Positions 1 through 33,944 of a stretch of DNA of 34,164 bases are shown here, one piece after another. The translations under genes were made by a program, and so were the position numbers. The notes beneath the pieces are model-generated. The model saw nothing but the letters and a program-made list of their open reading frames with translations. It was not told where the DNA came from and made no database searches. Within the stretch, counting starts at the first letter, position 1; each line of letters starts with the position of its first letter. The stretch is from Candidatus Methylomirabilis sp. (GTDB lineage: Bacteria > Oederibacteriota > PGYV01 > DYJU01), in contig DYJU01000018.1 of NCBI GenBank assembly GCA_020722985.1, positions 1 through 34,164 on the forward strand, read 5' to 3'.

Positions 1-1008
1 CCAATCTTAGATGATTTTGAAGGAGGAGATTTTGATATAAACAACTGGGGAGGCTTATGGACGCAATGGGCAGCAACAGGGAGTAATATAACAAGGGCAG
101 TGACAACAGATGCAGGAGCAGGGACTTATGCAGGGGTGATAAGTGGAGATGTAATAGGGAGTGGCTGGCCATCAATAGCGGTGTCATCAGATTTAAATGC
201 GAGTGGGACAGAGATGGATTTAAGTAGCACACAAGGGATAAGGTTATATATGAAAGGAAACAAAGGAAGCGGGACAGCAGTAGATTTTCTAATACAATTA
301 GTGTCAACAAATATAGAAGATTTTTCATACTGGAGATATAGTTATACACCGGCGAGTAATTGGGGGTATATAGATTTGCCGTGGAGTAGTTTTGTATCGC
401 CGGGATGGGGTCAGGGAGCGACATTAACGATAACAGATGTATTGCAGCATATAAGGACAATACAATTTGCGATATCAGATACAACAGGAGGGACAGCAAA
501 CAACACAGGGAACAACTGGTATATAGATGAGATAGAGATATACAGTGCAGGGACGGCGACAGAGACGGAAACTTTTACTGCGTCAAATACACCTACATTT
601 ACAAACACTGTTACAGGGACACAACCTGCAACATGGACTCCAACTCAAACATCAACTGCAAGTGCAACTGTGACACCAACAGAATCTGATAAATTAGAGA
701 TAATACAGGAAACGCCTGTTATAGTATATCCTAATCCTGTAATAAGTAAAAAATCTGATATAAAAATTAAGTTTGCAATAACTAAATCAGCAGATAAATT
801 TACAATCAGGATATATACAGCAGCAATGCGTCTTATAATGGAAAAGGTAGTTGAAACTAAATTACAATTGGGATTAAATGAAGAAATATTAGAATCAAAA
901 TTTATAAAGAATTTAGCGCGTGGGACATATTATTATATAATTATAGTAGAAGACGCAAAAGGTAAAATGGCAAAGAGTAAAGTTGAAAAGATGATAATAC
1001 TATTTTAA
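1..1008 (+). CDS. Secreted carbohydrate-binding-like protein with C-terminal sorting-type domain (5' end missing)
   Basis: The reading frame is open from base 1, so the true start lies upstream; the GTG at 100 is inside the gene. About 335 residues are visible. Residues 1-182 begin with a DDFEGGD motif and are rich in Trp, Gly and Ser (WGYIDLPWSSF, NNWYIDEIEIY near the end). This resembles CBM11/CIA30-type jelly-roll domains. A Thr/Pro/Ser linker follows (nt about 553-690), then a roughly 100-residue C-terminal domain starting VIVYPNP and containing ARGTYYYIIIVED, like type IX/FlgD-like secretion sorting domains. The protein is probably exported and surface-attached or released. The first 550 bases use GGG, ACA, GCA and AUA codons heavily and are less AT-rich than neighbouring genes. 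The overall architecture matches the C-terminal half of the large GH8 protein at 29412-33944. Any catalytic domain would lie outside the window. Confidence 0.75.
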   Translation, partial: PILDDFEGGDFDINNWGGLWTQWAATGSNITRAVTTDAGAGTYAGVISGDVIGSGWPSIAVSSDLNASGTEMDLSSTQGIRLYMKGNKGSGTAVDFLIQLVSTNIEDFSYWRYSYTPASNWGYIDLPWSSFVSPGWGQGATLTITDVLQHIRTIQFAISDTTGGTANNTGNNWYIDEIEIYSAGTATETETFTASNTPTFTNTVTGTQPATWTPTQTSTASATVTPTESDKLEIIQETPVIVYPNPVISKKSDIKIKFAITKSADKFTIRIYTAAMRLIMEKVVETKLQLGLNEEILESKFIKNLARGTYYYIIIVEDAKGKMAKSKVEKMIILF

Positions 1009-9590: not shown

Positions 9591-12500
9591 ATGAAAATAA
9601 TCCAGAAAATATTTTTTTTGATTTTACTCGTATTTTTTTTAATATTTCTCTGTTTTATAATAATTGCTAGGGTTCCGGCGTTCACATCTATTATCACTGA
9701 TTATATAAATTCTGAAATTTATAAAGCCACCGGGAAAAATATAATAATAAACAGAATTGAATTTGGACTTATAGATAATATAAAAATTAAAAATATTTTA
9801 GTGCCACTTAAAAGAATATCCCGGGATGGGGAATTCGCAACGATAAAAGAAATTGATTTAAGATTTAATATTTTAGATATTATAAAAAATAAAAAAGAAA
9901 TAAACAAAGCTCTGTCAAAGATAATAATAAAATCGCCTGTATTTTATATTTATAAACAAAATAACAGATTGAATATTGAAGATTTTTTTTATAGTTTTGT
10001 AAAGAAAGAAAAAAAAGAAGGGCAGAATAACATTTTATTTCCACTGCCATTTTTTAGGATTATCATTGAAAATGGTAGACTAATTTATGGAGATAAAGAT
10101 ATAAAATATTTTGATTCTTTGGAAAATATAAATGGCGATATTTTTTTAGATATAGAAAAAAAAGTAATAAAAGCAAATTTTGATGCGAAATCAAAAGAAA
10201 AGGGTAAAGGGAAAATTTTAGTTGCGGGTGATTATTACTGGGAAAAAAATAAATTAAAAGCAAATTTAAAGACGGAAAGTTTAAATTTATATTCATTGAT
10301 AAATTACTTTGTTGATAGTAAAGAACAATCTGTAAAAATGACCGATATAACGTCAGATATAAATATTTTTTTTAGCGAGAAAATTGAAAATTTAAAATTA
10401 AATGGCTATGTTAAAATAAATGATGGGATTATTTTAAAAAATAATATTCCTATAAATAACATAAAAGGTGAATTTACAGTTACCAATGAAAAAATTTTAA
10501 TAAATTATTTTAATTTTAACATTTTTAAAAACCCTGCTTATATAAAAGGATATTTAAAAGATGTATTTAAAAAATTTGAATTCAATTTTGATTTAATAAT
10601 AAATGATTTTGATATAGTGAAGGTGGCTGAAAATTTTTTAAATGGCAAGGGAAGAATAACGCTTAATATTTTTGGTGATAAAGCAAATATAGAAGGCAGG
10701 GGACAATTGTTTTTAGATAGCGCAGAGGTTAATAAAATACCGATAAAAAATATAGAGGCAGATATTAAAATTAAGAAGGGGATATTTAGTTTAGACGGAA
10801 TGAAAGGTAAAATTGCAGAAGGAAATTTAAATGGAAATTTTTACGTTGATACCAAAAATAAAAATGCATTAAATGGTAAAATAAATTTAAATCGTTTAGA
10901 ATTTGAAAAATTGACAAACACAAAAGATTCATACGGTAAAATAAATATTGTTTCTAATATATCAGGTAAACTTGACCTGCCATATATAAAAGTTCAGATA
11001 AATTCTGATTCAATAAAATATAAAGAATATAGTTTAAAAAATATTAAAGGAAATATTATATATGATAAGAAGAATTTAGAAATCTTTTCCTATTTTGACT
11101 ATTCGGATTATATAGCACTTAAATTATATGGAAATATATTGTTTAATAAAGACAGAATAGATATTGTTAATTTAAGTATTAAAGAAAAAGCATCAGTTAT
11201 TTCAAGGACATCTGGATTTTTTAATCTGCACGATAAAGAGATAAAACTTGATACTGAATTTTTAAATATTATCCTAACAAAATTAAAAATTGAATATTTT
11301 AAAAATAAAAAAGTTGAAGCTGAGTTTAACGGAAAATTTGTTTTAACCGGGAAAATTGACAGCCCCGTCGTAGAACTTAAACTTATTACGAAAAAATTAT
11401 TGATAAGAGAAGAACCATATAATTTAATTATGGATGTTATTTATGAAAAGAATGCAATCAGTATAAAAGAACTTAATTTCAGTGATATAGTTACAGGAAC
11501 GGCAGAGTTTTCACTAAAAAAGAAACTTTTTGATATAAAAATAGATATTAAAAATTTAAAAGGAGATGTTTTAAAAGAGGTTTTGGGTTTTGATATTTTA
11601 GCTGATAGTAAAGTAAATGGAGCGGCTCAAATAAATAAAACTTTTGATGGATATAATGGATCAATTTTTATAGACACCTCTTATAAAGCTGGCATATACA
11701 AAAAATTTGAAATTGATATTTCAGGAGATAAAAATATTTTCAATATAAATAAATTTAAAATAAAACAAAAAGAGGGTTTTTTAAATATAACTGGTAATTT
11801 TAACATCAAGGAAGATAGTTATATCTTTCTTGATATAAATGGTAAAGCAAAAAATTATCAAATAAATGATAAATTAAAGGTGCAATTTGATCTGGAAAAT
11901 AAAAGCAAAGTTACATTATCAGATAAAATTTCGTCATCTAACAATTTAAAATTTACAGATATAAAATTTAATGGAAGCCAGTTAAAAGACCTTTTAATTA
12001 ATTTAAAAACAGAAAATATAGATATAACATCCTTAAAACTAAATTGGGGTGAGAATTATTCAATTCGGGGAAATTTATATTCTGATATATCAAAAATATA
12101 TTTAAGATTTGATTTTAAAGAAGCGGATTTTTTCCCTTTTTATGCTATCCTGAATATGAGAGAAAAAGGACTACCAAAAGATGCGCTTTTAAACGGTTAT
12201 TTAGAAATAAGCGGTCCTCTTGATAATTCTGATTTACTTTTATACATATCCCAGATAAAAGGGATTGCGCGGATAAATGGCAAAGTAAATTTTAATAAAA
12301 ATTTAAGTGTTTTTAAATTAAACAGATTAAATTTAGATTACAATATCTTAAATTGTGACCTTAAAAATTTTATTTCAATTTTTGTTGAAAAATTTGAAAA
12401 TACAGGTAGTTTAAATTCAAAAGGTAAAATAAAAGGCAATCCTGAAAATTTATCAAGCGAAGGAAATATAATTTTGTCAGGCGGAGTTTTACAGGGTTTT

Positions 12501-14855
12501 AATTATGAAAACGTTAATATAGATTATAATTTTAATGATAATAAATTATTATTTTCTAAATTTAATTTCTATTATAAAAATCAGTTTTTGGATCTTTCAA
12601 ATTCTTTTTTGAAAATAAAAAATAAAAATGAATTTTATTCTGATGTAAAAATGTTTCTAAAGGATTTTGTTTTTCGTGGAAATAAGTTAAATGGCAATCT
12701 TAATTTTTCTGGTGCGATAAGTAAGTATAATGATTTTAAAATAAATGGTTCAATATCTTCTGATAATTTTACTTTCTGCAGGCATACATTTGCACCTTTT
12801 ATAATAAACATAAATCTTGCAAATGATGAACTTTTGTTAAAAACGAGCGAAAGTATAAAGGAAAATAAATTATACGGGAATATAAAATTTTTTAAAAATA
12901 AAGTTTTTGTAAAAGAGTTTTCTATTGAAAACTTATCTCATAAATTTATATCTGCGCAAGGGTTTATTACATCTGGTGATGAAAATTCAGATTTCACCAT
13001 AGAGATGGTTGATTATGATCCGCAGGTAATAAGCAATTTACTTAACTGGACGCATGAATGGAGAGGATATTTAAATGGTAACATAAAAATTTCTCGTAAT
13101 ACTAAAAAAGGGCTTGCTTTTACAATTTATTTAAAATTAACGAATGGTTCTTTTAATAATTTAGAGTTTGATTTATTTACTGGACTTTTTTCTTTGAAAG
13201 ACAATTGGCTTGATATTGCACCCGCAGGGCCTACTATTCTTACAAAAGAAGGCAAATATGAGATAAAAGCAACAGGAAAAATACCGGTTCCAATGTCAGA
13301 AGAAGGTGTTCAAATAGTAAAAGGTGTTGAAATGGATATAACAGCGCAGGTAAGAGAAGGGGATTTATCAATAATTAAATTTATAAAATGGGTGGATACC
13401 GCAGAAGGCAGATTAGATGCGGATATTAAAATAAAAGGAACAAAAGAATTTCCTTCTATAAGCGGAAAAGTAAATGTAACGGATGGTTCTGCTTCTTTTA
13501 AATATTTATTAAAAGATATAAAACATATATTTGCTAATATTTTAATTAAAGATAATGTTATTGATATATATAGTTTAAAAGGTGATTGTGGAAAAGGGAT
13601 TTTAAAAATATCCAATTTAAATGATGAAAAAAAAGGCGGATTACTTAAAGAGTATAAAATATATGAAGCAAACTGGAAGATTGAAAATATTGGCGATAAA
13701 ATAAAAATATCAGATACTAAATATATGGAATTTTTAAATGGAGATGCTGACCTTAACCTTGAAATGACAGGGCAGATTGAAAATCCTTTAATTAAAGGTG
13801 AAATTAAACTTTCTAATACAAAATATACATATCCCACTAAAATAATGTCTGATAAAGGAGAAGAAGTTAAGGATTTAAAAAACAATTATGCAAAGCAGAT
13901 AACATGGGATGTTAATGTTTATTGTAAAGAAAATTTCATGTATTACAGCATATACGGAAATAATTATGCGGAAGTTTTTATAAGACCATCCGATTCACCT
14001 ATAACTTTTATGGGGAAGGGAAATGACCTTAAAATTACAGGTAATGGACTGATACAGCGTGGAACATTTAAATATATGAATACTGACTTTTCATTTGATG
14101 AGATGAAAGAATCAAAAGTTGTTTTTGATAGTGATAGACGGCCAGTTTTAGATATAAATGCAAAAAGTAAAATAAAAAGAATAAAATTAAATGAATATGA
14201 TGAAGAAAAAGATGTTGATGTTTATTTAAAAGCCTACGGTAGAGTTGGTGATGTCCGGATAGATGTTTCGTCAGAACCATCACTTGACAGGAATAGGATA
14301 TTTTATATTTTAACTTTTGGAAGCGATGTGCCAAAAGGCATAGATTTAACACAGGTTGGCAAAGACGCGACAATGCTTGCTGCTGATGCTCTCGCAAATT
14401 ACTGGCTTAAAATTGGTGGACAGGAAATAAAAAAAAGAACGCCTTTAGATTATGTTGATATTAAATTAAAAGCAAGCGATTTTTTGGGAAGGGAGGATAA
14501 GGGTCAATCAAAGCAGGATTTGCCATCTAAAACCACAGAAACAGCAGATACAGGAGGAAATACTCCATCAGCAATTGTTCAGATAGGAATGGGGAAATAT
14601 TTAACCGACCAGATTTATTTTGGTTATGACCTGAAACTTTTCAAGCATGGAATAAATTTAAATTTAAATCAGCCAGGTGAAGTATATGATCTGCAACATA
14701 TTTTAGGACTTGAATATTTTCTTGACAATACTAAAAAATTAAAATTTTACAGAACTTTTGGTTCTCCTAATTTAGGACTTCAGGATGAAACATTTTTTGG
14801 TCTGGAAAGCCGAATATCTTTTGAAAGCTGGGATTCAAAAAATAAAGAAAAGTAA
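9591..14855 (+). CDS. tamB: Translocation and assembly module protein TamB (DUF490, AsmA-like)
   Basis: 1754 residues. A single N-terminal membrane anchor (about 5-28) is followed by a very long periplasmic body of alternating short beta strands with recurring LNG.I.L/IKG.. patterns, typical of AsmA-like lipid-channel proteins. The C-terminal 450 residues match the TamB domain: SEPSLDRNRIFYILTFG, then NYWLKIGG..., LKASDFLG and a terminal beta segment ending RISFESW. Family members form a hydrophobic groove bridging inner and outer membranes and are implicated in phospholipid transport and outer-membrane protein assembly. No tamA is adjacent; an Omp85-type barrel fusion lies at 20492-23395. 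The sequence is very AT-rich and Lys/Asn/Ile-heavy, like its neighbours. Confidence 0.9.
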   Translation: MKIIQKIFFLILLVFFLIFLCFIIIARVPAFTSIITDYINSEIYKATGKNIIINRIEFGLIDNIKIKNILVPLKRISRDGEFATIKEIDLRFNILDIIKNKKEINKALSKIIIKSPVFYIYKQNNRLNIEDFFYSFVKKEKKEGQNNILFPLPFFRIIIENGRLIYGDKDIKYFDSLENINGDIFLDIEKKVIKANFDAKSKEKGKGKILVAGDYYWEKNKLKANLKTESLNLYSLINYFVDSKEQSVKMTDITSDINIFFSEKIENLKLNGYVKINDGIILKNNIPINNIKGEFTVTNEKILINYFNFNIFKNPAYIKGYLKDVFKKFEFNFDLIINDFDIVKVAENFLNGKGRITLNIFGDKANIEGRGQLFLDSAEVNKIPIKNIEADIKIKKGIFSLDGMKGKIAEGNLNGNFYVDTKNKNALNGKINLNRLEFEKLTNTKDSYGKINIVSNISGKLDLPYIKVQINSDSIKYKEYSLKNIKGNIIYDKKNLEIFSYFDYSDYIALKLYGNILFNKDRIDIVNLSIKEKASVISRTSGFFNLHDKEIKLDTEFLNIILTKLKIEYFKNKKVEAEFNGKFVLTGKIDSPVVELKLITKKLLIREEPYNLIMDVIYEKNAISIKELNFSDIVTGTAEFSLKKKLFDIKIDIKNLKGDVLKEVLGFDILADSKVNGAAQINKTFDGYNGSIFIDTSYKAGIYKKFEIDISGDKNIFNINKFKIKQKEGFLNITGNFNIKEDSYIFLDINGKAKNYQINDKLKVQFDLENKSKVTLSDKISSSNNLKFTDIKFNGSQLKDLLINLKTENIDITSLKLNWGENYSIRGNLYSDISKIYLRFDFKEADFFPFYAILNMREKGLPKDALLNGYLEISGPLDNSDLLLYISQIKGIARINGKVNFNKNLSVFKLNRLNLDYNILNCDLKNFISIFVEKFENTGSLNSKGKIKGNPENLSSEGNIILSGGVLQGFNYENVNIDYNFNDNKLLFSKFNFYYKNQFLDLSNSFLKIKNKNEFYSDVKMFLKDFVFRGNKLNGNLNFSGAISKYNDFKINGSISSDNFTFCRHTFAPFIININLANDELLLKTSESIKENKLYGNIKFFKNKVFVKEFSIENLSHKFISAQGFITSGDENSDFTIEMVDYDPQVISNLLNWTHEWRGYLNGNIKISRNTKKGLAFTIYLKLTNGSFNNLEFDLFTGLFSLKDNWLDIAPAGPTILTKEGKYEIKATGKIPVPMSEEGVQIVKGVEMDITAQVREGDLSIIKFIKWVDTAEGRLDADIKIKGTKEFPSISGKVNVTDGSASFKYLLKDIKHIFANILIKDNVIDIYSLKGDCGKGILKISNLNDEKKGGLLKEYKIYEANWKIENIGDKIKISDTKYMEFLNGDADLNLEMTGQIENPLIKGEIKLSNTKYTYPTKIMSDKGEEVKDLKNNYAKQITWDVNVYCKENFMYYSIYGNNYAEVFIRPSDSPITFMGKGNDLKITGNGLIQRGTFKYMNTDFSFDEMKESKVVFDSDRRPVLDINAKSKIKRIKLNEYDEEKDVDVYLKAYGRVGDVRIDVSSEPSLDRNRIFYILTFGSDVPKGIDLTQVGKDATMLAADALANYWLKIGGQEIKKRTPLDYVDIKLKASDFLGREDKGQSKQDLPSKTTETADTGGNTPSAIVQIGMGKYLTDQIYFGYDLKLFKHGINLNLNQPGEVYDLQHILGLEYFLDNTKKLKFYRTFGSPNLGLQDETFFGLESRISFESWDSKNKEK

Positions 14856-17782: not shown

Positions 17783-18979
17783 ATGGCGGATGTAATGGCT
17801 GAGATAGAAGAATTAAAGAAAAAAATATCCCAGAATCCTGACTCTCTCATTTTTGTTCCGCTTGCCGATGCTTATCGCAGAGCAGGTATGTTAGATGAAG
17901 CCATTGAAGTATGTAAAAAAGGTCTTGAAAAACATCAAAATTATACATCTGCCAGGGTAGTTTTAGGCAGGATTTATTCTGAAAAAAATATGTTAGATGA
18001 TGCAATTGCTGAATTTAAAAAGGTTGAGGCAGTTGATATTGACAATATAATGGTTCATTCAATGCTTGGTAATATATATTTAAAAAAAAAAAGATATGCT
18101 GAAGCAGTTGAACAGTTTCAAAGAGTTCTTTCATTAAATCCAGAAGACCTTGAAACACAGGAAAAATTAAAAGAAGCTCTTTCTGCAAAACAGGAACCAA
18201 TAAAGGCAGAATCAAAGATAGTTGAAAAATCAAAAACAGAAGAAAAGCCAAAAATAGAAGAAAAACCCAAAATAGAAGAAAAATCAAAAGTTGAACCAAA
18301 GGAAGATTTACAGAAAAGTTTAAAAGTAGCTGAAATTTATACGAAGAAAGAGGAATTTGATAAGGCAATAGAGATTTATAGAGAAATATTATCGAAAGAT
18401 CCTGAAAATATTTTCGTGCAGCAGAAATTAAGAGAGGTTTATAGTTTTCAAGAAAAGAAATTAGAAAAACTAAAACAAAAAAGTTCTTCTTCAGAAAAAA
18501 GCGAGAATGATAAAATAACAACAGAAGATATACTTGTTGTAATGAAAGATGCAATAACTGAAACTGAGAAAAAAGAACCTGCAAAAGTTGAAAAACAGGA
18601 AGCAAAATTTCTTTTTGATAGCAATAAAGCAAAAAAGATTGAAAATATTTTAAAGGATTTGACCAATACAGAAGGAATAGTTGGTGGAATTTTTTTACAG
18701 AGAGATGGTAAAATAGTTGCAAGTATTTTACCGCCAGACATTGATTCAGCAGAGATAGATAAAGATATAACTCAGATAGTGGATAAAACAGAAAAATCTA
18801 TTTTTAATATGAAACAGGGCAGACTGAATTACGCTATAATAGTGTCAGAAGTAGGACAACTTTTATTTACAGAAATCAGCAATGGCGTGCTTTTTATGAT
18901 AGGAAACGAAAAGATAAATATGGGTAAGATGAGTTATGTTTTAAAAGATGTGGTTGCTAAAATAAAGGCACTTTTTTAA
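17783..18979 (+). CDS. TPR protein with C-terminal roadblock/LC7 domain
   Basis: 398 residues with a strong AAGGAGG Shine-Dalgarno. N-terminal tetratricopeptide repeats (about 18-51, 52-85, 86-122; the third reads MLGNIYLKKKRYAEAVEQFQRVLSLNP) are followed by a Lys/Glu/Pro linker (135-178) with four 6-residue EKxKxE repeats, and another TPR (about 179-214). A charged stretch then leads to a roadblock/LC7 domain (about 283-398, starting KIENILKDLTNTEGIVGGIFLQRDGKIV). Roadblock domains dimerise and regulate small Ras-like GTPases such as MglA. A second, free-standing roadblock gene follows 35 bp downstream, so the two probably pair. No GTPase gene is nearby. There is no signal peptide, so it is cytoplasmic. 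Confidence 0.82.
   Translation: MADVMAEIEELKKKISQNPDSLIFVPLADAYRRAGMLDEAIEVCKKGLEKHQNYTSARVVLGRIYSEKNMLDDAIAEFKKVEAVDIDNIMVHSMLGNIYLKKKRYAEAVEQFQRVLSLNPEDLETQEKLKEALSAKQEPIKAESKIVEKSKTEEKPKIEEKPKIEEKSKVEPKEDLQKSLKVAEIYTKKEEFDKAIEIYREILSKDPENIFVQQKLREVYSFQEKKLEKLKQKSSSSEKSENDKITTEDILVVMKDAITETEKKEPAKVEKQEAKFLFDSNKAKKIENILKDLTNTEGIVGGIFLQRDGKIVASILPPDIDSAEIDKDITQIVDKTEKSIFNMKQGRLNYAIIVSEVGQLLFTEISNGVLFMIGNEKINMGKMSYVLKDVVAKIKALF
18224..18295 (+). repeat. 18-bp tandem repeat inside the TPR-roadblock linker
   Basis: Four in-frame 18-bp units encode EKSKTE, EKPKIE, EKPKIE and EKSKVE (residues 148-171). The two middle units are nearly identical at DNA level, consistent with replication slippage in a flexible charged linker. 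Confidence 0.75.
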
Positions 18980-19014
18980 GTTGAAAAGAAAAGCGATGGA
19001 GGAATATGATATAA

Positions 19015-19371
19015 ATGGATTTTAAAACATTGCTACAGAAAATAGTAGAAAATGTTGACGGCGCAATTGGGGCTGCTGTTATAGGAGAGGATGGCATAGC
19101 AATAGAACAATTTACAACAAAAGCAGATTTTGATATAACTGCTGCGGGTGCCGAATATTCAACAATAATAAGCAGTGCTAAAAAAGCATCAAAAAGTTTT
19201 GGACTTGGTAAAACAAACGAGGTTTTAATTTCAACTGAAAAAGCAACAATGATAATGATGATGATGGATAAAAATTTATTTGTAACTTTAGCTTTAAATT
19301 TAGATGGTAATTTAGGAAGGGGAAGGTTAGAATTAAAAAAAGCAATTCCTGAACTGGAAAAACTAATTTAA
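19015..19371 (+). CDS. Roadblock/LC7 domain protein (MglB-like)
   Basis: 118 residues, a single roadblock/LC7 domain. It starts with the helix FKTLLQKIVENVDGAIGAAVI, then GEDGIAIEQF, a central helix (YSTIISSAKKASKSFG) and the strand pattern NEVLISTEKATMIMMMMDKNLFVTLAL, ending in a helix. Such proteins dimerise and act as regulators of MglA/Ras-like GTPases in polarity and motility. GGAGG lies at 18998-19002. It follows the TPR-roadblock protein; the pair may form a heterodimer. No GTPase is encoded in the window. Confidence 0.83.
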   Translation: MDFKTLLQKIVENVDGAIGAAVIGEDGIAIEQFTTKADFDITAAGAEYSTIISSAKKASKSFGLGKTNEVLISTEKATMIMMMMDKNLFVTLALNLDGNLGRGRLELKKAIPELEKLI

Positions 19372-20169: not shown

Positions 20170-20463
20170 ATGTGGAAGTCAAAAAGAATAACGGCAAAAT
20201 CTAGGAAAAAAGGTTTGATTATAATTTTTATACTAATTTTTTTCTCTTTTGCATTCATAAAAAGTTTTTATAAATTTGTTTCAATAAAAATAAAAGAAAA
20301 ACAGATGATAGAGGAGATAGAAATTTTAAAGCAAAAAAATGATGAAATTAAAAGAAAATTAAATAATATTTATGACAATAAGGATTTTATTGAAAAGCAG
20401 GCCAGACAGTTAAATCTGATAAAAGATGGTGAAATAATTTTTATAATAAAAAAAACCGAATAA
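20170..20463 (+). CDS. ftsB: FtsB/DivIC-family septum formation initiator
   Basis: 97 residues. A basic N-terminus is followed by one transmembrane helix (about 14-31), a coiled coil (about 35-68) and the family-typical tail DFIEKQARQLNLIKDGEIIFII. Length and order match FtsB/DivIC, bitopic proteins of the division complex that bind FtsL and FtsQ and help activate septal peptidoglycan synthesis. The gene is 3 bp after the six-TM protein. Sequence conservation in this family is low, so the call rests mainly on architecture and the C-terminal motif. Confidence 0.78.
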   Translation: MWKSKRITAKSRKKGLIIIFILIFFSFAFIKSFYKFVSIKIKEKQMIEEIEILKQKNDEIKRKLNNIYDNKDFIEKQARQLNLIKDGEIIFIIKKTE

Positions 20464-20491: not shown

Positions 20492-23395
20492 ATGAAAAAA
20501 CTTATTTTATCATTGCTATTAATTCTAATCACAATTTCAAATGCCTTTGCGTTAAATAAGATTAGATATAAAGATTTTAAATGGTATATCTATGAAACGG
20601 AAAATTTCTATATTTATTATTATAAGGGGGCTGAGTTTTTAGCTAAAATGTCAGCAATTTATGCAGAAGAAGCTTATAACAAATTGAGTAGGGAACTTAA
20701 TTTTAAATCAAAAGAAAAAAATCCACTATTCATTTATGATTCACATCAGGCATTTACAACTACCAATATTACACAATCTTTTATAGGTGAAGGAACAGGC
20801 GGATTTACTGAAATGTTTAAAAACAGGGTGGTAGTGCCAACGAATGGTTCATTAAAGTCATTGAGGGAAGTTATCTTTCATGAAATGACCCATGTTTTTC
20901 AGTATAAAATAATATACGGCGAAGGAATGCTATCTTATGCGTCGTTATATAAAGATTTATTTATTCCTTTATGGGTTATGGAAGGTAGCGCTGAGTATTT
21001 TGCAGAAGATTTTGATACGATAGGTGATATGATTTTAAGAGATGCTGTAATTAATAACAGACTGATACCCATTGATAAATTGGATAGTTTTTCACATTTA
21101 GAAGAAGTTTATTTGGCTTATAAGGAAGCCCAGACTATTTTTATTTATCTTTCAAATAAATATGGAAAAGGGAAAATATCAGAATTCATAAATGGTTTTC
21201 GCGGAGATGCTGGTATGGATGCAATTTTTAAGAAAGTATTTAAAAAAGAAATCAGTGATTTTCAAAAGGAATACGAATTTTATTTAAAGAAAAAATACTG
21301 GTCACAGGTTCAGGGCAGAGACACGCCTGAAAAATATGGTCCTAAATTAACTGAAAATGATCATCGCCATATAGTTTATAATCAGGCGCCAACTTTTTCT
21401 CCTGACGGAAAATATATTGCTTTTATATCAACACGAGAAGGTAACAGGGCAATTTATATTATGCGTAATGATGGCAAAGAGTTAAAACAGGTTTTTAGCA
21501 ACAGGTTTGAAGGAATTTCTGTAGATGGGTTTCCAATATCGTGGGCTAATGATAATAAGACAATTTATTTTGTTTCAAAAGAAAAAGGGAAAAAATATAT
21601 ATTTAAAGGGAATATTGAAACTGGGGAATTAGAAAAAATCCTTATACCTGAATTTGATAATTTATTTTCTCCAGCAATTTCTCCTGATGGAAAATATATT
21701 GCTTTTATTGCTTTAAAAGATGGATTTTCGGATGTTTATTTATATAATATAGAAAAAAAAGAAACAATAAATATTACAAAAAACATATTTATGAATAATT
21801 ATGTCAGTTGGTCAGGTGACGGAAGTTCACTTATATTCACTGAAGAAAGAAATGATTATAGCAGATTGGTTATTTTGGAATTAAATACAGGAAATAAAAA
21901 ATTTATAACAAAACCTGTTAAATATGATTATTTGGCTCCACGGTTTTTAAATGAAAAAGAAATCGTATGTTTGTCTGATAAAACAGGAGTCTTTAATTTA
22001 TATAAAATAGATTTAAAAACAGGAAATGAATATCAGATGACAAACATTATAAATGGAATCTTTAATCCTTCTGTTTCTGATAATTATATTACATATGCTT
22101 ATTACGAAGATGCCTGTTATAATATTTATAAATATTTAATTTCAAAAAAGCAGAAATTTGTGGAAATACCACTTATTTATAATGAAGCACTTATTAAAAA
22201 TAAAGAAAAAGAGCAGGGAAAAATATTAAGATATGAAAAGAAATATGAATATAAATATGATATAAAAACGCCTAACGAAGGTGATGACGAAGAATTTAAA
22301 AAAGAGATAGAAAAAATTGCAGAAAAAATAATTAAAAATAATGAACAGTATTCATTAAAGTTTACTCCTGATATATTTTTTGCCCTACTTGGTTTTAGCA
22401 CTGATACAGGACCTGTAGGAGGTGCTTATATTTTAACATCAGACATGTTAGGCGATCATAATCTTGCTATTATTGCAAATTTTATACCTGGTTATTTTTC
22501 GCAATTTGATTTTAGTTATCTATTACTGAAATTGCCTTTTGATTTAGGTTTTAATTTTTTCTATCATCAGAATATTTACAAATTATATGATATAAATACG
22601 AATTCATTTTTTTCTCAACTTGATACAACAGAAATCGGCGGAAACTTACAGATGAGTTATCCTTTAAATTTATATGCAAGTTTAGGATTGATTTTAGGAA
22701 CAAAAAAAATAACAGATAAGTATATAAATTATGATACGAGTAGTATATATTTATTCAATGATAATGAAATCAATTTTTTAAATACTTTAACATTTTATTT
22801 TGTAAATGATTTTTCTTTCTGGCGGGATTTCTGGACATATTCAGGAGATTTTATTTTATTTTATGTTGAAATGGCGGATAAAATCTTTAGCGGGACAAAG
22901 ACATATACTATTTATGAAATGGATTTAAGAAAATATTTTGATCTGTCATCTTTTGTTTATAAAAATTTGAGTTTTAATTTAAGAATTTTAGGCGCAATGA
23001 CAGAAGGACCGGATAAACCATATTTTCTTTTGGGCGGATTAAATACAGTCAGGGGTTTAAAATACGGTGAATATGAAGGAGATAAAGTAATAATTACAAA
23101 TTATGAATTGAGATATACCCTTGCCCAGAATTTTAATTTCACAATATGGCCTTTGCAGTTTTTAATGTTTAAAAATTTAAAAATAGCATTTTTTGATGAT
23201 GCTGGTATTGTAAAAACAGGAATAATAGATAAATTAAGTAATGAAGAAATAAAAAATGGGATAGGGATAAGTTTGATTATTGATGCATTTTTAATTCAAA
23301 GACAGTTCTTACCTGTAAGATTTGACCTTGCAAAAAGGACAGATATAGGCGATGATTCATGGAAATTTTATTTTTCTTTGAGTACTGGATTTTGA
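20492..23395 (+). CDS. Outer-membrane fusion: peptidase-MA domain, TolB-like propeller, Omp85-type barrel
   Basis: 967 residues. A signal peptide (1-20, cleaving after AFA) is followed by a gluzincin-like domain (about 25-270) with HEMTH (130-134) and a downstream EGSAEY (E164/E168), the zinc-site layout of peptidase MA-like proteins. A PD40/TolB-like propeller (about 290-560) has repeats such as FSPDGKYIAFIS (302-313) and ISPDGKYIAFIA (396-407). A Lys/Glu-rich connector (565-620) leads to a beta-barrel (about 625-967) with the Omp85 signature GGLNTVRGL (848-856) and a terminal Phe as barrel-insertion signal. A role in handling or processing exported proteins at the outer membrane is plausible; the actual function is not known. 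No POTRA domains are recognisable. Confidence 0.83.
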   Translation: MKKLILSLLLILITISNAFALNKIRYKDFKWYIYETENFYIYYYKGAEFLAKMSAIYAEEAYNKLSRELNFKSKEKNPLFIYDSHQAFTTTNITQSFIGEGTGGFTEMFKNRVVVPTNGSLKSLREVIFHEMTHVFQYKIIYGEGMLSYASLYKDLFIPLWVMEGSAEYFAEDFDTIGDMILRDAVINNRLIPIDKLDSFSHLEEVYLAYKEAQTIFIYLSNKYGKGKISEFINGFRGDAGMDAIFKKVFKKEISDFQKEYEFYLKKKYWSQVQGRDTPEKYGPKLTENDHRHIVYNQAPTFSPDGKYIAFISTREGNRAIYIMRNDGKELKQVFSNRFEGISVDGFPISWANDNKTIYFVSKEKGKKYIFKGNIETGELEKILIPEFDNLFSPAISPDGKYIAFIALKDGFSDVYLYNIEKKETINITKNIFMNNYVSWSGDGSSLIFTEERNDYSRLVILELNTGNKKFITKPVKYDYLAPRFLNEKEIVCLSDKTGVFNLYKIDLKTGNEYQMTNIINGIFNPSVSDNYITYAYYEDACYNIYKYLISKKQKFVEIPLIYNEALIKNKEKEQGKILRYEKKYEYKYDIKTPNEGDDEEFKKEIEKIAEKIIKNNEQYSLKFTPDIFFALLGFSTDTGPVGGAYILTSDMLGDHNLAIIANFIPGYFSQFDFSYLLLKLPFDLGFNFFYHQNIYKLYDINTNSFFSQLDTTEIGGNLQMSYPLNLYASLGLILGTKKITDKYINYDTSSIYLFNDNEINFLNTLTFYFVNDFSFWRDFWTYSGDFILFYVEMADKIFSGTKTYTIYEMDLRKYFDLSSFVYKNLSFNLRILGAMTEGPDKPYFLLGGLNTVRGLKYGEYEGDKVIITNYELRYTLAQNFNFTIWPLQFLMFKNLKIAFFDDAGIVKTGIIDKLSNEEIKNGIGISLIIDAFLIQRQFLPVRFDLAKRTDIGDDSWKFYFSLSTGF

Positions 23396-23403
23396 TATAA
23401 AAA

Positions 23404-24228
23404 ATGGATTATATAAATTCATCAATTTTAGGTATAATTCAAGGGTTAACTGAATTTTTGCCGATAAGTTCAACTGCGCATCTTATAATAGTCCCTTTTT
23501 TATTAAAAATAAAAGAAGGATTATTAAAATCTTTGACTTTTGATATTTTTTTACATGGTGGAACTTTGCTTGCGGTTATTATCTATTACAGGGATAAAAT
23601 AATAAAATTAATTGTAAAATTTTTTGAAGGCATATTTGATAAAAATAAAAGAGACGATGTCAATTTTAAACTTTCTATTTTTATAATATTGGCAACTCTA
23701 CCTGCTTTTTTCTTCGGATATTTTTTTAAAGATTTGATTGAACAAATTTTCAGAACGCCAATTTTTTCTGCTTTATTCTTAATAATTTTTGCTATTTTAT
23801 TATTTATTGCTGATAGAATAAAAAACAAAAGCAAAGACATAGAAAAATTAAATTTTTTTGATGCTCTAATAATAGGATTTTTTCAGGCGATTGCGCTTTT
23901 GCCTGGCGTTTCGCGTTCAGGTATTACAATAACAGCGGGTCTTTTTTTGGGGTATAACAGAAAAGACGCAGCAGAATTTTCTTTTTTACTTTCCATTCCT
24001 GTTATTCTTGGGGCTTTAGTTTTTGGAATAAAGGATTTAGTTAAAAGTGGAATAAACGATAACTTTATTATATTGATAACAGGATTTATTTTTGCTTTTT
24101 TATCTGGAATTATAGCAATTAAATTTTTACTTTCCTATGTTAAAAGATTTTCATATCTTATTTTTATTATTTACAGAATAACTTTCGGAACTTTAATTCT
24201 TATTTTAATATTTTTAGGTAAAATATGA
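23404..24228 (+). CDS. uppP: Undecaprenyl-diphosphatase (BacA/UppP)
   Basis: 274 residues, integral membrane. Both family motifs are present: QGLTEFLPISSTAHL (13-27, with E17, S23 and H26) and LPGVSRSG (166-173, with R171). It dephosphorylates undecaprenyl pyrophosphate to regenerate the lipid carrier for peptidoglycan and surface polysaccharides. It lies 8 bp after the Omp85-type fusion gene and overlaps the next gene by 4 bp (ATGA). Confidence 0.95.
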   Translation: MDYINSSILGIIQGLTEFLPISSTAHLIIVPFLLKIKEGLLKSLTFDIFLHGGTLLAVIIYYRDKIIKLIVKFFEGIFDKNKRDDVNFKLSIFIILATLPAFFFGYFFKDLIEQIFRTPIFSALFLIIFAILLFIADRIKNKSKDIEKLNFFDALIIGFFQAIALLPGVSRSGITITAGLFLGYNRKDAAEFSFLLSIPVILGALVFGIKDLVKSGINDNFIILITGFIFAFLSGIIAIKFLLSYVKRFSYLIFIIYRITFGTLILILIFLGKI

Positions 24229-29411: not shown

Positions 29412-32400
29412 TTATTGTCTTATTACAAATATCCTTCCTTTTTTAACTGTTCCTGTTTCTTTGTTTTTTATTATAAATAAATAGATTCCCGGTGCCGCGT
29501 CTTTTCCGTATCTATTTTTACCATCCCAGTAAACTATTATATGCTGTGCATATAAAGTATTTACCATCTCCCCTGATATTGTATAAATCTGTATCACTGA
29601 ACCAGGAATTATATTTTCAAATTTAAGTTTCTTATCCCTCGCGGTTTCTGGATTAAAGGGATTTGGATATACAACAACTTCTCCTATTGGGTAAAATGAC
29701 ATATCAGAAGTTATAGGCGGATGTTTGCCATAAGAAGGTATATAATAGTCATCGTTATAATCTACTGAAACCCTATTTGTAATTGGCAATCTTTCTGGAA
29801 TTATATTTTCTATTTCAACAGTAAATTCAATACTGATTATTTTACCGGGCTCAAGTGACTGTGATAAATCCCATCTTGCGACGTTATTATTTAATGAAAA
29901 ATTTGCTGAAGAAAATTTATTTTCTTTAAAAATAACTTCATCAGGCAAAGTATCCCAGACAGAGATATTTGTAATTGTTGTAGAAGAAGGATTTTTAATA
30001 TTGATGGTATAATTAATTTTAGCACCTGGTTTTGGATCTTCGCCAGAAGCAGTTAAGGTTATGATTAAATCAACAGGAGAAGGACGAGAAGTAGGAGTAA
30101 TTGTAGGAGTTGAAGTTCTCGTATGAGTGGAAGTAATTGTAAAAGAAGGAGTAAAAGTGCTGGTAAAAGTAAAGGTGTTTGTATGAGTAAAAGTAAAAGA
30201 AGGTGTAGCAGAACTGGTAAAGGTAGGAGTTAAAGTAAAAGTTAGAGTAAAAGAAGGGGAGAAAGTTACAGTAGAAGTATAAGAGGAAGTAGTAGAAGGG
30301 GTAGATGTAAAAGTAGGAGAATGAGTAAAAGTATTGGTATTAGTCCATGTAGGAGGTGGAGTGCCAGTGGTAGTATGAGTAAAGGTAAAAGAAAAAGTAG
30401 ATGTAGGAGTTGGAGTGTTAGAAGAAGTAGGAGTATAAGTTAAAGTATTAGAAGGAGTAGAAGTAGGAGAATCAGTGGTAGTATAAGAAGGTGTATTAGT
30501 TCTTGTATTGGTTGGGGAATTAGTATTAGTAAAAGAAGGGGTAGATGTAAAAGTAGGAGAATGAGTAAAAGTATTGGTATTAGTCCATGTAGGAGGTGGA
30601 GTGCCAGTGGTAGTATGAGTAAAGGTAAAAGAAAAAGTAGATGTAGGAGTTGGAGTGTTAGAAGAAGTAGGAGTATAAGTTAAAGTATTAGAAGGAGTAG
30701 AAGTAGGAGAATCAGTGATAGTATTAGAAGGTGTATTGGTACTGGTGTTTGTTGGAGAATCGGTGGGTGAATCAGTAAAAGTTGCAGTTGATGTAGTAGT
30801 AGAGGTGCTTGTGTTTGTTATAGTATTGGTCATGGTTGACGTTGCAGTATTTGTAGGTGTGTGGGTTTCTGTAGGCGTTGCAGTATTCGTTAGTGTACTG
30901 GTTCTTGTTGGAGATGGTGTATTTGTTGGTGAACCCTCAGGACATCTTAATATAACTGAAGCATCGTCTGAAACAGGAGCTTCTTTATCGCCTTTTATCC
31001 AGGCAATATTTCTTAAGTTTATATCAGAAACCGGGCAACCTGGGTCCTGGGCAATTGCATAATATTTTATCTGTCCGCACTGGTTAATTTGCATATTGCC
31101 AATATCACATTGTATTGTTCTATTTCCTAGATTGTATGTGCAGGTTCCACAAGTTGTGATGAAATTACCCCAGTTTAAATTAGCGGGCAGGGAATCATAA
31201 ACAATAACACCTGTTACTTCTCTTCCTGGCATTGGACCATTTCCAAAAACCCTTCGCCATGTATATCCATCCCATTCTTCTATAAGTATATTTTCAATTC
31301 TCGTTGTAGTTGTTTCACATGCATGTTTGTTTACTCTATCTAAATTAGTTCCAGGGGTGGCTGGTATACCATCAGTCCAATCAGGAGAAATAGGAAACAT
31401 CATTTCAGCCGGACCACCGACTTGAGTTGCAGACGTTTGTTGTGACCAGTCATCAGTCCAGTCCTGATTAAAATAGTTTGCAGTTATACGAACTTCAAAA
31501 TAAAGTGGTGATGTTGCAGTGCCAAGATGAATTCTTCCCATGTCGCCATAATAATTATATAAATGATGTGTTGGCGCAGAAGGAAGTGAAGCAGGCCTTA
31601 TCATAATTCTTTGATTCCAGTATTTGCCTGTAACAGTATCATAGCATGCTGTTGGCGTGCAAGCAGTGTAATCTTCTGTTGAGAGTATAAGGTTATGTCC
31701 GGCTGGTTGAATTGAATTTATATAAAGTTGCCAGTCAGAGCCATGATAAGGTGAATTTAAAAAATATGAAATTCTGTAATTACCCCAGTCAATAACCGGT
31801 TCTGCTGCTTCGTGATGTGCAGCAATATCAAGGTATAATTGATTACTGTCTGAACCCGGCAATCCATTTACACCACCTGCAAAAATAACGCCTGAATGAC
31901 CACCTTCTATCCAGCCTGCCTGCGAAGAATTACAAAAATCAATGGTATATGTAATTGTTTGTCCGGGATTTACAAGTGCAACACTTGCAGTTTTTGTAAT
32001 TGTAAGTGCTGCGGCAACTATATCAACGCAGTTAGTTTTTAATATTGTAGTTATTTCATTTGCTTCATCTGACGATGTCCAGCCGGTTCCATTGCTTGTT
32101 CTGATATCTGCTGAGTTGCAATATTTACCCTGCAGAGCATCCTGCCTAACTCTTACAACCAACGTTACTCCGCCCATTGTAGCACCATAATTCTGGTTTT
32201 GAAGTCCATTAACTGTAAAAGGTCCCCATTCATATATATTAGCAGCAGGATTAGAATTTCCTGTATTATAAGCAGGGGTTGAAGTTACATATTCAAAAGC
32301 AGATGGTAAAGTATCTCGTATATATACATCATTTGCAGTAACCGATCCATAATTTCTATAATTTAACCAGTAAGTTAAAGTTTCGCCAGGGAAAGTATAT

Positions 32401-33944
32401 GTTTTATCAACTGATTTATATATTTTCATATTTGCCTGTGGATTAAAGTGGCATGGACTTACATAATTACCTGTTAAAATTAATAATGCTAATACTCTAT
32501 AAAATCCATGAAAATAAGCAGGGACAGAAGATAAATAACCATCGCCAGGTGTCTCTACATCCCATTCTATCATTGATTCCCTGAACCATTGTCCCATTAA
32601 GTCAAAATTTTGGGATGCGACAATAGCAGCAGCAGATGAACCAAAAGTTTTTATTTGATGAAAAGTCCAGAAAGGGGAACCGTCTAAATTAAATTCAACA
32701 ATTGATGGTGAACCTTTATAGGTAACAGGAGATGAACCATAAGATTTACAACCATAAACTCCATAAGATTGCGGGTCATTTAAATAATTTGCAAGTTTTA
32801 TTGCTGCATCTCTTTCATAAGTATTTGATGCAGTGATAGTAACGTGTGCTACAGGATCCCACGATATATCCGGATTACCATAGAAAAGATAATCAAGTGC
32901 ATGTCTCCATGGAGTTCTAAAATCTTCTCCACCTGGATTTGCATTTGTAAAAGTAATATTAGTTCCATTTATAGAATATTTTCCAGCAAAGGTTGTTCTG
33001 TGAGAAGATGCAGCGAGTTGTCCCTGTGTCCAGTTCATGGCTGCCGCACTTCTTATAAATTGTGTTATGTTCCATCCTATATCTCTGGAGTCGCCATTTA
33101 ATTGTAATGCTTCTGCAAAACATCTAAAATAATAAGGTGCAGAATAGTCATACCATGTTTCTGTAGGACCAGAAAATTCTAAATTGTCAGGACCAGTATA
33201 CCAGTTTGTAACTTCACCCCAGGTATTTCCACCTTTTGTATAACCATCATATCCAATATCTCCTGATGTATATTTATTATTTGGGTCTAAATATTTTTCA
33301 ACTAAAAATCTCATCATATCAAGAGCCATATCCTTATATCTGATTGGTTGTCCATCCCAGCGAACATAACCTGTATTATCTCCCCATTGTCTCCATGCAA
33401 TTAAAGCAGCAAGAGCAATATCAACATCGCCATCTGTTGCAGAATCAGCACCTGCTCCATTCCAGCCAGGGACATGGATACCATATGCATAACCAGGTGA
33501 GCAGATTGTTCCATCACTATACCTTGGAATTTTATTAAACCAGCAATTATCATTTAAATAAAACCATAATCCATCAAAAGTTGTTTTATCACCCATAAGT
33601 GCAGCGGCGAGTAGAGCATAACCATGACCTTCTGAACAAAATGGACTTGATTCAAATATAATACCCTGAACGCCACAAATTGTTCCGCCTGCATAGTTTG
33701 CTCTGTTCATCATTATTTGATATGCATCACGTATCCATTTTTCCATTTCTGCATGTGATACTCCATCAGGCATATGAGTCCAATCTGCAATTGAATAAAG
33801 AGTTGTTTGACCGCCAGCAGGATAATTATTGAATTGTGGAAATGGCATTGCAGGGTTTCCAGAATTTATATTTACAGTAATTGCACTATATAATAAAGAA
33901 AGAATAAAAAAGAAATTGATTAAGAAAAAACTAATTTTTTTCAT
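29412..33944 (-). CDS. Secreted multidomain GH8 glycoside hydrolase with DUF11 repeats, Thr/Pro linker and sorting-type domain
   Basis: 1510 residues, with a signal peptide (1-20). The GH8 domain (about 50-500) carries the likely catalytic acid E105 in CSEGHGYALL and the GH8 signature ATDGDVDIALAALIAWRQW (169-187), so cellulase/chitosanase/xylanase-type activity on a beta-glycan is expected. Two DUF11-like regions follow (about 508-590; about 645-1000, the second interrupted by a long insertion). A roughly 285-residue linker made almost wholly of Thr, Pro, Ser, Asn and Phe comes next (about 1003-1287). A third DUF11 domain (about 1290-1375) and a C-terminal domain with VVVYPNPFNPE and APGIYLFIIKN (about 1420-1510) complete the protein; the last resembles type IX/FlgD-like sorting domains. 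A surface-bound or secreted polysaccharide-degrading enzyme is the likely role. Confidence 0.88.
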   Translation of the reverse strand: MKKISFFLINFFFILSLLYSAITVNINSGNPAMPFPQFNNYPAGGQTTLYSIADWTHMPDGVSHAEMEKWIRDAYQIMMNRANYAGGTICGVQGIIFESSPFCSEGHGYALLAAALMGDKTTFDGLWFYLNDNCWFNKIPRYSDGTICSPGYAYGIHVPGWNGAGADSATDGDVDIALAALIAWRQWGDNTGYVRWDGQPIRYKDMALDMMRFLVEKYLDPNNKYTSGDIGYDGYTKGGNTWGEVTNWYTGPDNLEFSGPTETWYDYSAPYYFRCFAEALQLNGDSRDIGWNITQFIRSAAAMNWTQGQLAASSHRTTFAGKYSINGTNITFTNANPGGEDFRTPWRHALDYLFYGNPDISWDPVAHVTITASNTYERDAAIKLANYLNDPQSYGVYGCKSYGSSPVTYKGSPSIVEFNLDGSPFWTFHQIKTFGSSAAAIVASQNFDLMGQWFRESMIEWDVETPGDGYLSSVPAYFHGFYRVLALLILTGNYVSPCHFNPQANMKIYKSVDKTYTFPGETLTYWLNYRNYGSVTANDVYIRDTLPSAFEYVTSTPAYNTGNSNPAANIYEWGPFTVNGLQNQNYGATMGGVTLVVRVRQDALQGKYCNSADIRTSNGTGWTSSDEANEITTILKTNCVDIVAAALTITKTASVALVNPGQTITYTIDFCNSSQAGWIEGGHSGVIFAGGVNGLPGSDSNQLYLDIAAHHEAAEPVIDWGNYRISYFLNSPYHGSDWQLYINSIQPAGHNLILSTEDYTACTPTACYDTVTGKYWNQRIMIRPASLPSAPTHHLYNYYGDMGRIHLGTATSPLYFEVRITANYFNQDWTDDWSQQTSATQVGGPAEMMFPISPDWTDGIPATPGTNLDRVNKHACETTTTRIENILIEEWDGYTWRRVFGNGPMPGREVTGVIVYDSLPANLNWGNFITTCGTCTYNLGNRTIQCDIGNMQINQCGQIKYYAIAQDPGCPVSDINLRNIAWIKGDKEAPVSDDASVILRCPEGSPTNTPSPTRTSTLTNTATPTETHTPTNTATSTMTNTITNTSTSTTTSTATFTDSPTDSPTNTSTNTPSNTITDSPTSTPSNTLTYTPTSSNTPTPTSTFSFTFTHTTTGTPPPTWTNTNTFTHSPTFTSTPSFTNTNSPTNTRTNTPSYTTTDSPTSTPSNTLTYTPTSSNTPTPTSTFSFTFTHTTTGTPPPTWTNTNTFTHSPTFTSTPSTTSSYTSTVTFSPSFTLTFTLTPTFTSSATPSFTFTHTNTFTFTSTFTPSFTITSTHTRTSTPTITPTSRPSPVDLIITLTASGEDPKPGAKINYTINIKNPSSTTITNISVWDTLPDEVIFKENKFSSANFSLNNNVARWDLSQSLEPGKIISIEFTVEIENIIPERLPITNRVSVDYNDDYYIPSYGKHPPITSDMSFYPIGEVVVYPNPFNPETARDKKLKFENIIPGSVIQIYTISGEMVNTLYAQHIIVYWDGKNRYGKDAAPGIYLFIIKNKETGTVKKGRIFVIRQ
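30294..30717 (-). repeat. 240-bp-period duplication within the Thr/Pro linker
   Basis: Bases 30294-30477 recur without a mismatch at 30534-30717, an offset of exactly 240 bp (80 codons), and then the two copies diverge. The first difference is at 30478 versus 30718. The frame is kept, lengthening the linker by 80 residues. Perfect identity over 184 bp, including silent positions, implies a recent duplication or gene conversion. Confidence 0.9.

Follow-up and report, generated by a model that had tools for sequence, protein, structure and literature searches.

A WD40-Omp85-type outer-membrane protein with a strictly conserved, predicted zinc peptidase site

A single open reading frame (967 aa, ATG start) at positions 20492-23395 on the + strand of the window, the 34,164 nt stretch of Candidatus Methylomirabilis sp. 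DNA that was analysed, encodes a protein in which a predicted zinc peptidase of the gluzincin type, a TolB-like propeller and a 16-stranded Omp85-type barrel are joined. The reading we favour, with a probability of roughly 0.45, is that it is an accessory WD40-Omp85-type protein of the outer membrane whose predicted periplasmic zinc peptidase would serve quality control or processing of outer-membrane proteins (OMPs) or the envelope. The kind is already known, since the WD40-Omp85 subfamily was described in 2014 as one of ten Omp85 subfamilies and was likened to a BamA-BamB fusion (Heinz and Lithgow 2014, PMC4104836). Our protein resembles this subfamily in placing a TolB-like propeller ahead of an Omp85 barrel and in lacking POTRA domains, and differs in that a gluzincin domain precedes the propeller, whereas the main text of the survey gives the propeller alone as the N-terminal part and makes no mention of an N-terminal peptidase. 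A literature search of partial coverage found no paper on a peptidase-propeller-Omp85 fusion and, as far as the literature searched shows, the strictly conserved gluzincin site is undiscussed.

WD40-Omp85 is one of several poorly characterised Omp85 subfamilies, and WD40-like members were still counted as not well characterised in 2024 (PMC11116518). An invariant N-terminal peptidase site turns a vague role, that of an attachment platform for BAM subunits, into questions open to test: whether the protein cleaves other proteins, which clients it has, and what phenotype follows when the catalytic Glu is mutated. The fusion may show how many diderm phyla carry out OMP quality control.

Gene and domain architecture

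The initial annotation had described a peptidase MA domain, a TolB propeller and an Omp85 barrel lacking POTRA domains in one chain, flanked by ftsB and uppP. Pfam, NCBIfam and an AlphaFold2 model agree with this domain reading, and profile matches identified the neighbours as a DivIC/FtsB-family gene at 20170-20463 (7e-14) and UppP/BacA at 23404-24228 (Pfam, 1e-85). The sequence landmarks HEMTH (residues 130-134), E164, GGLNTVRGL (848-856) and the last residue, F967, were all located. As over 80 other genomes encode the same domain order as a single chain, the fusion is no assembly artefact. The features are as follows.

20492..20551, +, signal peptide, residues ~1-20, MKKLILSLLLILITISNAFA; basic start, hydrophobic core, AFA cleavage-like end; low pLDDT
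20552..21355, +, predicted gluzincin (Peptidase_MA_2) domain, residues 21-288; Pfam 1e-12 to 8e-14, domain model pLDDT 87, Foldseek matches to M9 collagenase, M30, M1 and M61
20798..20827, +, GGFTEMFKNR, residues 103-112, predicted substrate-binding edge strand after a double glycine; conservation, model strand 105-107, analogy with ColG
20879..20893, +, HEMTH (H130, E131, H134), predicted zinc ligands and general base; conserved 86/86, helix 121-142
20981..20995, +, E164-G-S-A-E168, predicted third zinc ligand E164 and supporting E168 on the gluzincin helix; conserved 86/86, helix 160-171
21362..22156, +, TolB-like beta-propeller, residues ~291-555; PD40 2e-23, TolB 5.6e-40, Foldseek matches to TolB structures
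22157..22336, +, flexible linker and one helix, residues 556-615, POTRA absent; pLDDT <50 at 557-590, helix 600-613, least conserved part
22337..23392, +, Omp85-type 16-stranded outer-membrane barrel, residues ~616-967; 16 strands within 624-963, Foldseek matches to TamA (4c00) and BamA, Omp85_fam, PF01103 in relatives
23033..23059, +, GGLNTVRGL, residues 848-856, Omp85 loop L6 motif (R854 G855); R in 85/86, G in 86/86, between strands 11 and 12

By its sequence, the export signal is a Sec-type signal peptide. Pfam matched Peptidase_MA_2 at residues 58-266 (E=1.1e-12) and PD40 repeats (E=2.4e-23), and NCBIfam matched a TolB propeller (5.6e-40) and Omp85_fam over 784-963 (2.7e-9), both under the equivalog or subfamily cut-offs of those models. 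In the profile scan of its own genome the protein was not matched by PF01103, which does match several relatives of identical architecture. Comparison with PHROGs returned nothing relevant. Just upstream of the ftsB-like gene, at 17783-19371, a TPR protein whose C-terminal part weakly matches roadblock is followed by a stand-alone roadblock/LC7 protein.

The peptidase domain

Conservation of the HExxH residues among homologues, on which the initial annotation had staked its peptidase assignment, was complete. H130, E131, H134, W161, E164, G165 and E168 are identical in all 86 aligned full-length relatives, as are the edge-strand residues G104, F105, T106, E107, K110 and R112. Conservation of GFTExxKNR is partly by construction, because loci on genome contigs were fetched with that pattern; HExxH and E164 played no part in the fetching, and an alignment of 25 sequences from an unbiased search showed the same conservation of GFTExxKNR. 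The aligned relatives reach down to ~27-30 % full-length identity with the catalytic residues and edge-strand motif still unchanged.

The AlphaFold2 model places HEMTH in a helix at 121-142, E164 in a helix at 160-171 and the edge strand at 105-107, after the double glycine G103-G104. E164 lies 30 residues past H134, with E168 one helical turn further on. Collagenases show a similar arrangement, with HExxH preceded by a double glycine and an edge strand, a Glu 28-30 residues further on as third ligand, and another Glu one helical turn later supporting this ligand (PMC3711286). When a separate model of the N-terminal domain (77 sequences, pLDDT 87) was compared with known structures using Foldseek, the best matches were the clostridial collagenases T, G and H (TM about 0.6; 0.62 to the query for the M9 collagenase), followed by M30 lugdulysin, M1 and M61. 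The M9 enzymes (ColG, ColH and ColT) are thus the closest solved fold and share the elements of the site, but identity is only 18-19 %, and they are secreted collagen degraders, while nothing suggests collagen as a substrate here. The relation to M9, M1 and M61 rests on the fold search, as searching PDB sequences with a profile of the peptidase domain gave no significant match (best E 0.11). The pattern that defines the gluzincins of clan MA, HExxH with a downstream third Glu ligand on a neighbouring helix, is present in the sequence and in the modelled helices, and we read the domain as an intact gluzincin on the strength of its sequence, the position of the helices and the fold that it matches.

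In the 14 genomes checked, Peptidase_MA_2 matches above the cut-off were confined to the fusion and were absent wherever the fusion was absent. A truncated paralogue with ~22 % identity and a family-like start (FGQNRVQYRTFNW) was found at a contig end (L002:1459-2370, contig C23 of G000). HExxH and GFTE are both missing, Pfam gave no match, and the sequence has the appearance of a pseudo-peptidase form that may stem from a different organism in the bin.

Distribution and inheritance

The gene was detected (E <= 1e-40) in 37 of the 45 genomes of the phylum, almost always as a single copy, and its closest relative, in a genome of the same genus, is 83 % identical. The fusion is dispensable, since every one of the eight phylum genomes without it retains Omp85/BamA. 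Contig C107 encodes a separate BamA-like protein of 775 aa, which PF01103 matches over its full length, and the POTRA array of BamA is missing from the fusion. Because a distinct BamA is present, the fusion is not the core BAM subunit.

A scan of species-genome contigs with the single protein gave no match, and an alignment-based scan recovered at least 562 relatives. The best 80 of these carried the labels Goldbacteria, FCPU426, Firestonebacteria, Elusimicrobia, Spirochaetes, Latescibacterota, Eisenbacteria, WOR-3/Stahlbacteria, Hydrothermota, TA06, Cloacimonadota, Zixibacteria, KSB1, Neomarinimicrobiota, Delongbacteria, Deferribacteres, Gemmatimonadota and Bacteroidota, the labels being those of the submitters and some bins probably misnamed. 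The phyletic survey proposed in the initial annotation thus found the fusion in roughly 20 phyla, mostly little-known ones. A tree of 79 sequences with 17 phylum labels required 21 label changes, against a minimum of 16 and a mean of 42 when the labels were shuffled, and on these sequences inheritance looks mainly vertical. The almost invariable single copy, the presence in 37 of 45 genomes and a tree that largely follows the phyla suggest that the fusion behaves as housekeeping genes do and not as a mobile effector would.

Gene neighbourhoods and alternative roles

The genes adjacent to the fusion vary by clade, yet are mostly envelope genes. UppP adjoins it in seven Goldbacteria-type loci, MurA lies upstream in Zixibacteria, and an LpxH-like phosphoesterase gene is divergently upstream in Marinimicrobia and WOR-3/Stahlbacteria. 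Downstream, MlaE is found close to the fusion in Marinimicrobia and a few other loci, and GWxTD proteins in KSB1. In six loci of an Eisenbacteria clade (L052, L054, L057, L058, L059 and L090) TamB is directly upstream, and a UvrD/PcrA-like helicase gene is directly downstream. The LpxH-like, MurA and UvrD names come from reading the sequences (with a Metallophos match for the LpxH-like protein) and are not equivalog assignments, and loci within one clade are not independent. As the neighbours differ between clades, no single partner stands out.

The window also encodes, at 29412-33944 (-) and 100-1008 (+), large secreted proteins that weakly match CHU_C/Por_Secre_tail (type IX-type C-terminal tails); the one of 1510 aa has further matches to glycosyl hydrolase 8 and DUF11. 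SprA_N gave very weak hits in this and other genomes of the phylum, which hint at a remote type IX-like system. A link between the fusion and a type IX apparatus was considered and rejected, because these hits do not track the fusion gene: one was found in a genome without the fusion (G024), and many fusion-bearing genomes have none.

The fusion could instead be a dedicated platform for processing and translocation, with the barrel passing specific exported proteins and the peptidase acting like a sortase or maturation protease to cut off a propeptide or signal. Omp85 proteins do include translocases (TpsB and Toc75), and the tails together with the SprA-like hits indicate that surface proteins are exported in these cells. 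We regard this as possible but doubtful, given that the SprA-like hits do not follow the fusion's distribution, that no linked substrate gene recurs across phyla, and that the neighbours are housekeeping envelope genes.

A TamB/AsmA-like gene (1754 aa) is also present in the window at 9591-14855, followed on the same strand by SIR2, ACT-domain, deformylase and CAAX-protease genes. Together with the Eisenbacteria loci it hinted that TamB might be a fixed partner, which was not borne out in other genera: TamB is adjacent to the fusion only in Eisenbacteria and nearby in the genus of the window, lies on a different contig in other genera of the same order, and adjoins BamA in three genomes (G014, G015 and G028). 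It is unlikely that the fusion is a TamA-like partner of TamB or of other lipid-bridge systems, acting in lipid transfer or outer-membrane homeostasis with a regulatory peptidase. Such a role would suit the TamB and MlaE neighbours and the work of PlpD in outer-membrane lipid homeostasis; the Eisenbacteria linkage, however, represents one clade, and lipid transfer leaves an invariant protease site unexplained.

Barrel topology, location and predicted role

The full AlphaFold2 model (mean pLDDT 82.8, pTM 0.82) has exactly 16 barrel strands within residues 624-963. R854-G855, conserved in 85 and 86, respectively, of the 86 relatives, falls between strands 11 (826-838) and 12 (865-882), which we take to be the position of Omp85 loop L6, as in BamA. 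In Foldseek searches the barrel fold matched TamA (4c00) and BamA, and the propeller matched TolB structures, the best-fitting with an rmsd of 2.6-3.1 A over ~237 columns. The Omp85 topology that the initial annotation had made a condition of its reading is borne out by the strands, the location of the Arg-Gly pair and the TamA and BamA matches. Two features of the Omp85/TpsB superfamily, the 16 strands and the L6 Arg-Gly, are therefore present, and a third, the POTRA domain, is absent. TolB itself is alike in propeller fold and sequence, but is a soluble Tol-Pal protein with neither barrel nor peptidase.

With an even number of strands, both ends of the barrel should face the periplasm. PlpD, the best studied of the Omp85 proteins that carry an N-terminal enzyme, has its enzyme domain in the periplasm (PMC11116518) and is a model for position here; it differs in carrying a patatin lipase and one POTRA domain in place of a zinc peptidase and propeller. 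From the even-stranded barrel and the PlpD precedent we infer that the peptidase and propeller are periplasmic. Of the functions first suggested, coupled recognition and processing of exported proteins remains reasonable, while surface export is unsupported, given the predicted periplasm-facing barrel ends and the periplasmic PlpD enzyme. A surface-displayed protease, its N-terminal domains threaded through the barrel to act outside the cell like an autotransporter, would recall the secreted collagenases and an early proposal for PlpD, but is highly improbable given the location shown for the PlpD enzyme, the two large folded domains preceding a barrel with periplasm-facing ends, and a single-copy, largely vertical inheritance unlike that of a secreted degradative enzyme.

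Under the favoured quality-control or processing role, the barrel would hold the chain in the outer membrane and, like other Omp85 barrels, may take up or loosen strands of its clients; the propeller would replace POTRA or BamB-type recognition of clients or partners; and the peptidase, which from sequence and model is probably active on the periplasmic face, would trim or degrade outer-membrane-bound clients presented along its edge strand. This role is suggested by the invariant catalytic and edge-strand residues and the fold match to active peptidases, by the Omp85 barrel, single-copy and largely vertical inheritance, confinement of Peptidase_MA_2 to the fusion in the genomes sampled, envelope-gene neighbours and separate BamA, and by the periplasmic PlpD enzyme and the precedent of BepA, a metallopeptidase acting on the BAM complex (PMC8423444). 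Weighing against it are the eight genomes that keep BamA but do without the fusion, and neighbours that vary by clade and so single out no partner. The protein would resemble BepA (M48) in predicted role, as a zinc metallopeptidase at the site of OMP assembly using an edge strand, whereas BepA is a separate soluble M48-TPR protein in E. coli and the fusion is unrelated to it. The whole could be seen as BepA, the BAM-associated protease and chaperone, merged in one chain with an Omp85 assembly factor and working beside a separate BamA. That it belongs to an undescribed and ancient class of self-contained outer-membrane proteolytic assembly factors, in which the propeller recognises, the gluzincin cleaves and the barrel inserts or translocates, replacing BepA/BamB-type accessories in many FCB-group and neighbouring candidate phyla, is a bolder version that we consider rather unlikely. 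A metal-dependent enzyme domain on an Omp85 barrel is also found in the 'Metallo' Omp85 subfamily, although that domain is PF00149, a calcineurin-like phosphoesterase and not a gluzincin peptidase (PMC4104836).

In the model there is no POTRA domain between the propeller and the barrel, as the linker is too short and is disordered at 557-590, with only the helix at 600-613 preceding the barrel. POTRA domains are usual but not universal, and the same survey accepts Omp85 subfamilies without them (PMC4104836). Three relatives (L026, L030 and L031) have an extra segment in the linker, and the two that were scanned gave a weak fn3 match; in L030 and L031, which belong to family f12 of the phylum, the propeller-barrel linker is replaced by a weakly fibronectin type III (fn3)-like segment.
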